Shown here piece after piece: positions 24,404 to 43,153 of a stretch of 64,000 nucleotides of DNA; the stretch's first letter is position 1; the number at the start of each line of letters is the position of its first letter. Source of the stretch: Dolichospermum flos-aquae CCAP 1403/13F (GTDB taxonomy: Bacteria > Cyanobacteriota > Cyanobacteriia > Cyanobacteriales > Nostocaceae); assembly GCF_012516395.1 (NCBI RefSeq), contig NZ_CP051206.1, forward strand, positions 4,531,334 through 4,595,333, given 5' to 3'. A program made the position numbers and the translations under genes. The notes beneath the pieces were generated by a model that saw only the letters and a program-made list of their open reading frames with translations, made no database searches and was not told the origin of the DNA.

Positions 24404-24578
24404 AGGTGCTATCTGATTTTGCTGATTAGCCTATTACCGCTGACGATTATAGCACGATTTTTGCATTCGTCAATGGGGTATAGGGGACGAAATTTGGGAA
24501 ATACTGCAATTGATATGAGATCAAACCCCTTAGTTTTACATCAACAAGGGGAATTTTTTTGTTTATTCGTCAACCTTA
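24404..24578. other. Spacer between DUF6761 gene and MITE
   Basis: A CCCCTTAGTTTTACATCAACAAGGGG hairpin (24527-24552) followed by AATTTTTTTG is a likely terminator for the DUF6761 gene. Nothing else is recognised. Confidence 0.55.
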
Positions 24579-24747
24579 GAGGATGTTTGAAAAGTGGTAT
24601 TCCGTAATTTTCATCACATTGCTACCCCCCTTTCCCCTTGTAAAGGGGGGAAACAATAAAAATCCAGTTCCCTCCCCTTTACAAGGGGAGGGTTAGGGTG
24701 GGGTAAAAAATATTTGATACATCAACCATAACTTTTCAAACACCCTC
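24579..24747. mobile_element. 169-bp MITE, copy 1, with TTA target duplication
   Basis: Ends GAGGATGTTTGAAAAGT and ACTTTTCAAACACCCTC are inverted repeats with one mismatch. The flanks are TTA on both sides (24576-24578 and 24748-24750), the footprint of transposition. The interior contains two related hairpin blocks (CCCCCTTTCCCCTTG...AAGGGGGG and CCCTCCCCTTTAC...GGGGAGGG). No transposase. Copy 2 at 42613-42781 is identical by eye. TNA-type 3-bp duplications fit the IS1031 group of the IS5 family, an inference. Confidence 0.88.
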
Positions 24748-24834
24748 TTAGAAAATAATTAAAACATCTTATGTTTAAAGACAGGTTAATAAAACATTAT
24801 TATTTACATAAATTTTGAATTTACATTTAACCTT

Positions 24835-38746: not shown

Positions 38747-40705
38747 ATGACTAATGATGTTTTAATTATTGGTGGTGGTATTATCGGGTTGGCTTGCGGT
38801 ATTGAACTCAAATTACGGGGTGCAAATGTAACTGTAATTTGCCGTGATTTTACTGCCGCAGCCAGCCATGCAGCAGCGGGAATGTTAGCGCCTGATGCGG
38901 AAAATATTACTAATGAGGCGATGTTGTCTTTATGTCGGCGATCGCGTAATTTATATTTAGACTGGACGGAAAAATTAACAAAATTAACCGCCACAAAAGA
39001 TTTAAACAATACAGGTTATTGGCCTTGCGGTATCCTCGCACCATTGTATCAACAACCTGAAAACCAGGAACACAAAAACGCTAACTGGTTAGATAAAAAT
39101 ACGATTAACCAATATCAAACAGGTTTGGGTGCAGATGTGGTTGGTGGCTGGTGGTATCCTGAAGATGGGCAAGTTGATAACAGGGCTTTAATGAAAGTTC
39201 TGCGAACTGCGGCTACCTCTTTGGGTGTTGTTTTCCAAGATGGAATTACAGTAGAAGCGATTTCTCAACAACAGGGAAAAGTTATTGGTGTACAAACTAA
39301 TACTGGGTTACTTCTCGCTGATCATTATCTTTTAACTGCTGGTGCTTGGACGAATCAATTATTACCTTTACCAGTGCGTCCCCGCAAAGGACAAATGTTG
39401 AGCGTGCGAGTCCCGGACTTTGTGACTGAATTACCTTTAACCAGGGTGTTGTTTGGTGAAAATATTTATATTGTTCCCCGCCGCAATCGCTCTATCATTA
39501 TTGGTGCAACTAGCGAAGATGTAGGATTTACTGCCCATAATACCCCTGGGGGCATTCAAAGTTTATTACAATCAGCTATACGACTATATCCCCAACTAGA
39601 GAATTATCCTCTACAAGAACTTTGGTGGGGATTTCGTCCCGCTACTCCCGATGAGTTCCCTATTTTGGGTCATAGTTATTGTAGTAACTTAACCTTGGCT
39701 ACTGGTCATCACCGCAATGGTATTTTACTTGCACCAATTACAGCCACATTAATTGCTGATTTGATTTGTGAACAAAAAGCAGATCCTCTTTTAGCTAATT
39801 TTCATTATTCTCGCTTTTCTACTGTGTCATCTACTACTACACCAATGTTAATTCACGCGACTCCTGCCACTAACGGACACCGTAACCCAGAAATATCAGA
39901 TTTAATTGTTCCCGATTCACCATTAATTATTGCCGGCAAAAGCTTCAAATCTCGGTTAATGACGGGAACCGGTAAATATCGCAATATCCGAGAAATGCAG
40001 CAAAGTGTCGCTGCTAGTGGTTGTCAAATTGTCACGGTAGCTGTGCGACGGGTACAAACCAACGCCCCAGGACATGAAGGTTTAGCAGAGGCACTAGATT
40101 GGAGTAAAATCTGGATGTTACCCAATACCGCTGGCTGTCAAACCGCAGAAGAAGCGGTGCGAGTGGCACGGTTAGGACGGGAAATGGCGAAGTTATTGGG
40201 ACAGGAAGATAATAATTTTGTTAAGTTAGAAGTGATACCTGATGCCAAGTATTTATTACCTGATCCCATTGGCACTTTACAAGCTGCGGAACAGTTGGTA
40301 AAAGAAGGTTTTGCTGTATTGCCTTATATTAATGCTGATCCCATGTTAGCCAAGAGACTAGAAGAGGTGGGTTGTGCCACGGTTATGCCTTTGGCTGCCC
40401 CTATTGGTTCGGGACAAGGACTGCAAACAACTGCCAATATTCAGATTATTATTGAAAATGCCCATATTCCCGTAGTGGTAGATGCCGGCATTGGTGCGCC
40501 CTCTGAGGCTGCTGAGGCGATGGAATTGGGGGCGGATGCGTTATTAATTAATAGTGCGATCGCCCTGGCTGAGAATGCCCCAGCAATGGCTTATGCGATG
40601 AATTTAGCAACGGTAGCCGGTCGCATGGCTTATTTAGCCGGCAGAATGCCCACGAAGGATTACGCTAGTGCTAGTTCACCTTTGACGGGGACTATTACGG
40701 GCTAA
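38747..40705 (+). CDS. thiO/thiG: Bifunctional glycine oxidase ThiO / thiazole synthase ThiG
   Basis: 652 aa fusion for thiamine thiazole biosynthesis. Residues 1 to ~365 are ThiO, an FAD-dependent glycine oxidase: [46 protein letters not shown]. Residues ~385-652 are ThiG, with [16 protein letters not shown], the Schiff-base lysine in [18 protein letters not shown], and the late [19 protein letters not shown] and [13 protein letters not shown]. Glycine oxidation supplies dehydroglycine to ThiG. This fusion is typical of cyanobacteria. No TPP riboswitch is evident in the 130 bp upstream. The ATG at 38747 sits at the end of a CTAATGA repeat block. Confidence 0.95.
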
Positions 40706-40716
40706 TTTGTATTTAC

Positions 40717-41214
40717 TTAGATCCCCGACTTCTTGAAGAAGTCGGGGATCTGATTTTCTTCTAAAACCTGACTTTTATATTTGATCAGATCACCAGAATC
40801 TTTGCCATTTTGTTGTTTAAGACGTTTCTTGAGCTTAATTTCTATAGAACTATTAATATCAGGTGTGGGATTTCTATTTAATACAATACGTGCATATATT
40901 TTAAATTCTTGAAGTTCTGGTATTTCATCTTTTAGTTTATTTATAGATGAATCTATTTGGCTAAGTGCTTTTTGTAAATCATGTCCCTTTAATTCTACAA
41001 AAAACGCTGATTTATCTTCACAGGATAAAATTAGGTAATCACATCTTTCACCTTCTTTAATTAAGCAACCATCAACCTTAATCTTACAAATCTCTTTACC
41101 GTTTTTATTGGTGATTCTATACTCTTGTTTATTTCCTGAATCTCTGACAACTATGGTTTTTCTAGTATCACAAAATTCCTTACATTCACTTTCTCTAAAT
41201 AAATCGTTACACAT
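40717..41214 (-). CDS. PD-(D/E)XK nuclease-like protein, partner of the AAA ATPase
   Basis: 165 aa. The middle reads KVDGCLI, then CDYLIL, then FVELKGHDL. Asp59 followed by Glu74-x-Lys76 is the D-x(n)-E-x-K active-site pattern of PD-(D/E)XK nucleases, with the usual helix (QKALSQIDSSINKLKD) after it. The start lies 2 bp after the ATPase stop, so they form a tight operon. The C-terminal ten residues come from a palindromic repeat. No closer family is recognised. Likely the nuclease effector of a two-gene system driven by the ATPase. This is an inference. Confidence 0.7.
   Translation of the reverse strand: MCNDLFRESECKEFCDTRKTIVVRDSGNKQEYRITNKNGKEICKIKVDGCLIKEGERCDYLILSCEDKSAFFVELKGHDLQKALSQIDSSINKLKDEIPELQEFKIYARIVLNRNPTPDINSSIEIKLKKRLKQQNGKDSGDLIKYKSQVLEENQIPDFFKKSGI
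40720..40750. repeat. GATCCCCGACTT palindrome overlapping a gene 3' end
   Basis: Arms GATCCCCGACTTCTT and AAGAAGTCGGGGATC pair perfectly. It lies 15 bp after the thiO/thiG stop and also encodes the last ten residues of the minus-strand nuclease-like gene (IPDFFKKSGI), so the repeat has been incorporated into that coding sequence. Confidence 0.8.
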
Positions 41215-41216
41215 AG

Positions 41217-42512
41217 TTATTCATCCAGGTTGAACAAATCATTAAATTTGTTATTAATTATACTGGATGCGCTATCTATTTTTTCCGCTTGAATTAATTT
41301 TAGTTCTTCATCAATAATTGATTCATAGCCATTTTCAGAAATAAAGTAAGCTGAAATGCGATTTGGATCAATCCAACTTTTACTATTAACAATACTTTCT
41401 ACTGCTTCTCTTTCATCACCTATTTTATTTTTACCTACTTGATAAGCATATAAAAGATTATTGAAAGCAGATAAAATATAAGGACTATGAGTAGTTATAA
41501 TTATTTGATTATTATAAACATTTGCTAATAAACCAATCAGTTCTACAATATCACTTTGGGTTTCAGGATAAAGATGTGCTTCTGGTTCTTCAAATATTAC
41601 GGAAACACTCGTTTCATCTAAAATATATCGAAATATCAGCAATAAAATCCAGACAGATTCTTGTTGTCCTGAAGAAGCATATTGTAGTTTCACATATTGG
41701 TTATTTTTAAAATAAATTCTTTCTTTATCAATATCAGCATTAAATCTATATTCACCTTTGAGGATTTTTTTTAATAGTCTTGATAAATCATCAGCTAGAT
41801 TTAAAGCGACATCTTTATTCTGAATGAGAGTATTTAAGTCATTAGTAAAGTAAGTTTTTAATAAATTAATTCTCTCAACAAAAGATTTGGTAAAATAGTC
41901 TAATGTATCTGGATTTTTGATTTCTTGAAGTTGATCTGTTAATGTAGACATCAAACTTCTACCAGCAGGAATAAATACGGATGAGTGTGTTTCTTCAAAT
42001 ATTTTATCAATACGTGATTTGAAATTTTTAAACTGTAATCTTTTATCTGATTCTATTTCTCGTAATTCTTCTAATGATTTAAATTTATTTTGTTGTTCTT
42101 GAAAAATTATTTTGTAATTTAAAATTTCTGTAACTAGCAGCTTTAATTCTTTCTCAAGTATTAAACTTAATTTAATATTTAGATGATTGTCAGATTTATA
42201 AATTGTTATATGTTTGTCGTTTGAGTATTGATACTTAACACAAAATGATTCACAATTTTGTTTTAAACCGAAATATTTAAGAAAATTTATTTTTATATGA
42301 TTTAATAATACATACATAGAATCTTTAAACTGCTCTAAATTAGAATTATAAAGAGAATCAATTATTTCATCTTTAATAGATTTAAATATAAAAATAGATT
42401 TACTAATTGTACTTTTACCACTTGCTTGGGGTCCAATTAACAGCATTATATCCGTAACATCAGCCTCAAATTTTTTAACAGGACCAAAATTTTCTATAGA
42501 GATTCTTTGCAT
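41217..42512 (-). CDS. AAA15/OLD-like ABC-type ATPase
   Basis: 431 aa from the ATG at 42510-42512, which precedes MQRISIENFGPVKKF, the usual first strand of this class. The upstream TTG start is rejected. Walker A GPQASGKST (~24-32), ABC-like signature YASSGQQESVWILLL (~278-292), Walker B VIFEEPEAHLYPETQ (~304-318) and H-loop IITTHSPYILSAFNN (~338-352). A middle ~220-residue helical insert is Lys/Glu-rich. Such ATPases (PARIS AriA, Septu PtuA, RloC-like) sense invasion and activate a nuclease partner, which here is the PD-(D/E)XK-like gene 2 bp downstream. This is a comparison by layout, not a confirmed family assignment. Confidence 0.8.
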   Translation of the reverse strand: MQRISIENFGPVKKFEADVTDIMLLIGPQASGKSTISKSIFIFKSIKDEIIDSLYNSNLEQFKDSMYVLLNHIKINFLKYFGLKQNCESFCVKYQYSNDKHITIYKSDNHLNIKLSLILEKELKLLVTEILNYKIIFQEQQNKFKSLEELREIESDKRLQFKNFKSRIDKIFEETHSSVFIPAGRSLMSTLTDQLQEIKNPDTLDYFTKSFVERINLLKTYFTNDLNTLIQNKDVALNLADDLSRLLKKILKGEYRFNADIDKERIYFKNNQYVKLQYASSGQQESVWILLLIFRYILDETSVSVIFEEPEAHLYPETQSDIVELIGLLANVYNNQIIITTHSPYILSAFNNLLYAYQVGKNKIGDEREAVESIVNSKSWIDPNRISAYFISENGYESIIDEELKLIQAEKIDSASSIINNKFNDLFNLDE

Positions 42513-42612
42513 AATTATGATGTTTTGATTGAGATTCAAAAATATAAATCACTATGAACAGTGTAACAAAAATTTGATGGCAAATAGTCATGTAACTGAA
42601 CTTCGCGCTTAA

Positions 42613-42781
42613 GAGGATGTTTGAAAAGTGGTATTCCGTAATTTTCATCACATTGCTACCCCCCTTTCCCCTTGTAAAGGGGGGAAACAATAAAAATCCA
42701 GTTCCCTCCCCTTTACAAGGGGAGGGTTAGGGTGGGGTAAAAAATATTTGATACATCAACCATAACTTTTCAAACACCCTC
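42613..42781. mobile_element. 169-bp MITE, copy 2, with TAA target duplication
   Basis: Same sequence and orientation as the copy at 24579-24747, with no difference seen by eye over 169 bp. The flanks are TAA on both sides (42610-42612 and 42782-42784). It lies about 100 bp upstream of the ATPase start codon, so it may have changed the promoter of the ATPase/nuclease pair. Confidence 0.9.
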
Positions 42782-42973: not shown

Positions 42974-43153
42974 ATGCCTTACACAAACGAAGAGGGTGGT
43001 CTTCTCAATAACTTTGCTAAAGAACCCAAGCTTTATCAAGCTGAACCACCAACAAACTCCCAAAAGCGTAATTATATTATCTTAGGAATTGCAGCGATGC
43101 TTTTAATTGGAGGGGTAATTTTTGTCGCTTTCACTGTCTCTAATGTTAGCTAA
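42974..43153 (+). CDS. psb34: Psb34-like photosystem II assembly protein (Ssl1498 family)
   Basis: 59 aa, too short for many gene callers. ATG at 42974 after a modest AAGGAA ribosome site. The first half is MPYTNEEGGLLNNFAKEP-K-L-YQAEPPT, then one membrane helix, NYIILGIAAMLLIGGVIFVAF. This is the recognisable pattern of the cyanobacterial Ssl1498/Psb34 family, a single-helix protein that binds CP47-containing PSII assembly intermediates. A rho-independent terminator follows immediately. Monocistronic. Confidence 0.88.
   Translation: MPYTNEEGGLLNNFAKEPKLYQAEPPTNSQKRNYIILGIAAMLLIGGVIFVAFTVSNVS

Follow-up and report, generated by a model that had tools for sequence, protein, structure and literature searches.

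An ATPase and a small PD-(D/E)XK-like protein encoded as a gene pair in Dolichospermum flos-aquae, with the layout of recognised anti-phage systems

The window analysed here is a 64,000-nucleotide stretch of Dolichospermum flos-aquae CCAP 1403/13F (contig NZ_CP051206.1; the source genome consists of 5.2 Mb in 2 contigs). Its reverse strand carries a pair of genes that is the subject of this work: gene A, coding for an AAA15/OLD-type ABC ATPase, and gene B, coding for a small PD-(D/E)XK-like protein (Table 1). Gene A comes first and, as an earlier note based on the sequence alone had stated, its stop codon is separated from the ATG of gene B by 2 base pairs (bp; 41215-41216). An alternative in-frame TTG start for gene A is also present at 42539. 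The earlier note had proposed a variant or undescribed defence pair. A pair made up of a defence-type ATPase and a PD-(D/E)XK-like protein is indeed what the locus holds, but it can hardly be called undescribed, since the profiles of a candidate system named PDC-M29 match it and the layout of the WonAB system fits it.

The product of gene A matches the Pfam family AAA_15 (1.6e-30), and the Walker A, ABC-like signature, Walker B and H-loop motifs of the AAA15/OLD class that had been read in it are all present. Among the PADLOC models, AriA is the best match (1.1e-37) and PDC-M29A the next (2.2e-22), PD-T4-4_A being matched as well (residues 3-427, 6.7e-18). The best structural match, and nearest solved relative, is PtuA. 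All 56 A homologues match PDC-M29A at 1e-5, but this match is not specific, as AriA, PD-T4-4_A, PDC-M56A and NsnB are likewise matched by all of them.

The protein encoded by gene B belongs to no Pfam or NCBIfam family at an E-value of 1, and its sequence searches against the PDB gave no significant match. The check with PADLOC profiles suggested in the earlier note links both proteins to PDC-M29, although PDC-M29B, the sole PADLOC match of window B, is weak (5.1e-5). Within the B family, 47 of the 64 homologues match PDLC04563 and 25 match PDLC04564 at 0.01. These homologues range from 116 to 184 amino acids, and most members are 21-38% identical to window B. Residues D48, C58, D59, E74, L75, G77 and Q86 are nevertheless invariant in all 64, K76 is found in 63 and C11 in at least 90%, so that the D59...E74-x-K76 layout of the earlier note is present and conserved. 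The loci were collected with two peptide patterns, one containing ELKG and the other D-[GN]-C, so that the search itself accounts for part of the conservation of E74, L75, K76, G77 and D48; neither pattern includes C58, D59 or Q86. In 12 cyanobacterial homologues found by plain similarity, D48, C58, D59, E74, L75, K76, G77 and Q86 are kept in 12/12; the loss of the D, E and K residues, which the earlier note had regarded as a point against a nuclease, is thus not observed. Below the usual cut-off (E 0.1), some members of the family match HSDR_N (7/64), NucS_C (4), HSDR_N_2 (3), SfsA (2) and DUF2726 (1), which we take to be nuclease-like families, but unrelated families scored equally well. The weak fold matches of the B model include many DNA nucleases. 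In motif and size the B family agrees with a small PD-(D/E)XK protein, but support for the fold as such is weak.

The association between the two genes was studied in a pattern scan of one genome per species (84,980 species), which yielded 145 candidate stretches, 77 of them encoding a relative. These loci belong to cyanobacteria, Bacteroidota, Pseudomonadota, Lachnospiraceae, Campylobacter and others. In 76/77, the gene immediately upstream of B is an A-like open reading frame (ORF): 67 of these ORFs have at least 380 amino acids, and the 9 shorter ones are put down to a contig edge, damage or the choice of start. The one exception is L040, in which the start of B is at base 121 of the contig and an upstream ORF would be out of range. 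Pairing by chance in single genomes, another objection that had been anticipated, is contradicted by these counts. Of the 67 loci with the longer ORF, 37 have the two genes overlapping or abutting. Distances for A track those for B (correlation 0.854, 56 pairs), a value reached by none of 2000 permutations; this correlation shows shared inheritance and says nothing of physical contact. Among four near orthologues, the ratio of nonsynonymous to synonymous substitution rates of A and B is 0.12-0.31, and both genes are under purifying selection. In a set of 100 genomes of relatives, the source genome included, B is present in 18, and A or pieces of A adjoin it in 18/18. A and B are thus a real two-gene unit, the presence of which is patchy within the phylum (22/291 genomes).

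Several known systems can be compared with this unit. PDC-M29 is a PADLOC-DB 2.0 candidate (PDLC04562-04564) of which both components are matched, with the same gene order and adjacency (76/77 loci); it differs in the weakness of the window B match and is itself a candidate system. Its name was not found in the main texts of the literature searched, supplements being outside that search. WonAB, from the WASA-1 prophage of V. cholerae, is described as an OLD-type ABC ATPase and a 16.1-kDa PD-(D/E)xK protein, a system that needs both genes as well as K34, R182, E300 and H333 of WonA and K71 of WonB (PMC12137116). The same paper reports a lysis-independent abortive infection, shown experimentally, in which translation is apparently blocked (PMC12137116); a second paper repeats this account (PMC12409358). 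The window pair is likewise a two-gene operon in which an OLD-type ABC ATPase precedes a PD-(D/E)xK protein of ~16 kDa, and the catalytic positions and their spacing agree, as compared via the positions given in PMC12137116. Contrary to the prophage-borne WonAB, the window pair has ordinary genes on either side in a cyanobacterial chromosome, with no recognised prophage. The WonAB authors see a relation of their system both to PD-T4-4 and to 'OLD-ABC ATPase + Novel REase' operons, and propose that a larger family awaits characterisation (PMC12137116). PD-T4-4, obtained from E. coli by functional selection and located in an element resembling an integrative and conjugative element (PMC9519451), has AAA and PD(D/E)XK domains (PMC10952713). 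It shares with the window pair an AAA_15 ATPase, matched less well than PDC-M29A, and a PD(D/E)XK partner. A direct link between B and PD-T4-4_B was rejected as not significant, with no match of window B at E 1 and a weak hhalign result for the family (47% over 36 columns); the connection rather goes via PDC-M47B.

The earlier note had set the partner apart from those of PARIS, Septu and Gabija, and it is indeed of neither TOPRIM, HNH nor UvrD type. The detection rule of PARIS is AAA_15/21 with DUF4435 (PMC9122126). AriA of PARIS (AriA-AriB) is the best model of A, but membership was rejected: the pair has no DUF4435 partner, window B having no Pfam match at E 1 and DUF4435 being absent among the 25 families listed of 52 for the 64 homologues. 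Septu and the retron PtuA-PtuB pairs share the ATPase most similar in structure to A, but window B has no HNH or PtuB match. Gabija combines a TOPRIM domain within its ATPase and a UvrD-like helicase partner; the 431 residues of A have no TOPRIM match at E 1, the operon partner of A is B, and there is no helicase-sized ORF between 40706 and 43366. Membership of Septu and of Gabija was accordingly rejected as well. Taking profiles, gene order and motif positions together, the placement as a PDC-M29, WonAB-like pair is well supported, and the pair fits a kind of anti-phage system that is already recognised.

Table 1 Features of the gene pair and its surroundings. Positions are those of the window; pLDDT, predicted local distance difference test; MITE, miniature inverted-repeat transposable element
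Feature	Position	Strand	Remarks
Gene A, AAA15/OLD-type ABC ATPase, 431 aa	41217..42512	-	ATG at 42512
Walker A GPQASGKS (A residues 27-34)	42411..42434	-	K33 is K in 55/56 homologues
ABC signature SSGQQE (A 280-285)	41658..41675	-	G282 invariant; S280/S281/Q284/E285 at least 90% (56 homologues)
Walker B / D-loop VIFEEPEAH (A 305-313)	41574..41600	-	E309 in 56/56 homologues
H-loop TTHSPY (A 340-345)	41478..41495	-	H342 in 56/56 homologues
Gene B, small PD-(D/E)XK-like protein, 165 aa	40717..41214	-	PADLOC PDC-M29B 5.1e-5; model pLDDT 89.2
B motif D48-G-C50	41065..41073	-	D 64/64, C 57/64 homologues; partly built into search pattern
B motif C58-D59 (D of D...E-x-K site)	41038..41043	-	Each 64/64; outside search patterns
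B motif E74-L-K76	40987..40995	-	E 64/64, K 63/64; partly built into search pattern; 12/12 in similarity-found set
B Q86, helix after E-x-K strand	40957..40959	-	64/64; helix 80-97 in predicted model
169-bp MITE	42613..42781	.	TAA both sides; 100 bp upstream of gene A
Promoter-like site TTGTTA-17-TATATT upstream of A	42541..42569	-	Identical hexamers in L021; block common to 4 aligned sequences
Palindromic repeat / terminator-like hairpin	40717..40753 (29-bp repeat within 40719-40751)	.	Between convergent 38747-40705 gene and B

ATPases matching A are also found with other partners. The A profile, searched at 1e-30 in the 291 genomes of the cyanobacterial phylum, has matches in 22, from which 30 loci were read, several from the same genomes. 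The downstream ORF matches the B profile in 22 of these loci and is a different small ORF in 4 (L207, L208, L218 and L219); the other 4 are a contig-edge copy (L217, the B of which was seen by tblastn in L016), a B remnant (L194) and two without either (L196, L210). The partner in L218 is PD-T4-4_B (3.6e-91), that in L211 is PDC-M47B (7.6e-72) with a match to PD-T4-4_B at 1.2e-7, and a longer, 196-aa partner type (L216) matches PDC-M29B at 2.2e-9. Profile comparisons relate the B family to this long type (95%, 104 columns) and to PDC-M47B (92%, 37 columns), and PDC-M47B to PD-T4-4_B (96%). The source genome itself has two further pairs: an AAA15-type ATPase of 504 aa with a 196-aa partner (VEFK) at 3.15 Mb (L247, G000:C1:3151000-3155500) and one of 497 aa with a 307-aa partner (IEMK) at 4.38 Mb (L248, G000:C1:4382800-4387000). 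The ATPase-linked partners of L207 and L208 (211 and 213 aa) have CDY...IELR in place of ELK and no B-profile match, and that of L207 has no PADLOC match at 1e-5; they may represent a further nuclease-like subfamily, or one that is inactive.

The genomic surroundings were sampled in 20 of the 77 loci, picked on long contigs, over ~5 kb on either side. The 144 flank proteins (47,634 residues) matched 105 PADLOC families at 1e-20, against 3 (DndA, SspA and mad3) for a somewhat smaller control of 127 proteins (39,729 residues) from 20 regions of the same contigs; DndA and SspA presumably correspond to one cysteine desulfurase. The tally counts families and not genes, many of them being redundant models of one protein. 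Among the 25 flank families listed are Cas3, Cas5, Cas6, Cas8b, a type IV restriction enzyme, AbiLi, PD-Lambda-5_B, a type I specificity subunit and methyltransferases. Judged by eye, ~5/20 loci (L029, L057, L074, L086 and L094) have defence genes nearby and the rest have mostly ordinary genes. The co-occurrence in defence islands considered in the earlier note is thus found in part: defence genes are enriched around the pair, which is nonetheless usually found by itself. Carriage by plasmids or phages was also considered and rejected. Window B found 1 plasmid record by tblastn (33.7% identity), while the B of L037 and of L068, the L218 partner and the A of L071 found none (limits 1e-4, 1e-4, 1e-3 and 1e-20, respectively). 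The B sequences of L037 and L071 both match one unannotated 4.7-kb phage record. In viral contigs, 3 of 35 pattern matches encode a relative, and no L218 or L211 partner was confirmed there by seed searches.

In the window, the pair is flanked by a convergent gene at 38747-40705, a single ORF of 652 aa that looks to us like a thiO-thiG fusion, and on the other side, at 42976, by a small conserved gene. In three genomes (G012, G004 and G055), near orthologues of the pair adjoin the same neighbouring gene. Of 16 same-genus genomes, 7 allowed the interval to be assessed, the other 9 loci stopping short of the next gene. The pair is present in the source genome (G000), G004 and G012, broken in G008, where about residues 251-376 of A are missing and B is shortened, and absent from G005, G009 and G014. 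This pattern of gain and loss at the site fits defence genes. The G029 copy has its A gene broken across reading frames and its B gene interrupted by a ~1.29-kb insert (L019, about 1600-2893). The start of this insert resembles, in our reading, the end of a group II intron, and one short ORF the N-terminus of a maturase. A group II intron was suspected from the insert ends and rejected, Rfam at its gathering threshold finding no family in L019 or L006.

The MITE was located where the earlier note had reported it, about 100 bp upstream of A. Counting this one, the genome holds at least 34 copies with a length of 170 bp or more, a lower bound since scoring covered 40 of the 128 first-look candidates; 10 others are identical to it over at least 171 positions, and for these reasons the element was probably recently active. 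A second copy lies within the window at 24578-24748. The MITE is missing at the matching position in G012, G004 and G008 (L020, L021 and L005), which makes it a local insertion upstream of A. MITE-like DNA was also observed in G005 (L172), in the matching interval that is without the pair. The suggestion that the MITE could alter expression loses weight: between the ATG of A and the MITE, a single promoter-like site was found on the strand of the pair (42541-42569), which is conserved in three aligned relatives and intact here, so that a broken promoter is not supported, though the MITE may still affect expression of the pair. Promoter-like sites are not in excess in the region (18, against 14.5 in shuffles, standard deviation 4.1). 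At the other end, the 29-bp palindromic repeat, found in 127 places genome-wide at no more than 1 mismatch, provides the last ~10 codons and the stop of window B; the orthologues in L003 and L004 terminate just before it, and that in L002 continues in a different sequence. The repeat has the look of a terminator used by both convergent genes.

The relatives of the pair suggest a function in defence, and WonAB may serve as a guide to its mechanism and target. It seems quite probable, by this analogy, that A is an ATPase sensor which licenses a small nuclease to arrest infected cells. A would act as sensor and scaffold, an ABC-type ATPase being expected to dimerise to form its ATP sites, and B, a small PD-(D/E)XK-type nuclease, would be the effector held and licensed by A. 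Infection would change the state of A, upon which B would cut nucleic acid and the cell would be arrested before phage are made. By analogy with WonAB, transfer RNA or ribosomal RNA would be a more likely target of B than the chromosome.

One possibility is a direct restriction system of the kind proposed for Septu and Gabija, in which an A-B complex would cut the phage DNA itself without arresting the cell. The closeness of A to PtuA and the DNA nucleases among the weak fold matches of B are in its favor. Nevertheless, WonB overproduction leaves genomic DNA intact and phage DNA replication falls only 2.7-fold in that system (PMC12137116), and this possibility seems rather unlikely. Another idea concerns the control of B. 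In the sequences compared from the neighbouring PDC-M47B and PD-T4-4_B families the residue preceding the catalytic-type D is variable (A, C or N), and the PDC-M29B branch has its own cysteine set (C58, C50 and C11), which could make B a metal- or redox-gated effector, switched on by an infection-driven change rather than by ATPase action alone; this is quite a long shot. Alternatively, a small nuclease-like protein in a tight operon could be the free toxin of a classical toxin-antitoxin system, merely neutralised by A. Yet, this would require a large ABC ATPase, its catalytic residues conserved, to serve as antitoxin, and WonB toxicity requires active WonA, by which the authors rule out simple sequestration (PMC12137116); such a system is very unlikely. 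A role in DNA repair, in which B would be the nuclease of a module like Rad50-Mre11 (SbcCD), is extremely improbable, as the patchy presence is unlike that of a housekeeping repair complex, the pair decays in close relatives and A matches the PtuA defence ATPases better.

An ATPase sensor licensing a small nuclease would thus place the pair in a recently recognised class of immune pairs, to which it adds a clear cyanobacterial branch. Since its residues line up with those of WonAB, the question of the nuclease target in this class is testable with this pair, the source of which is harmless. The occurrence in one genome of three related pairs, with partners from different nuclease-like subfamilies, points to the modularity of the class.
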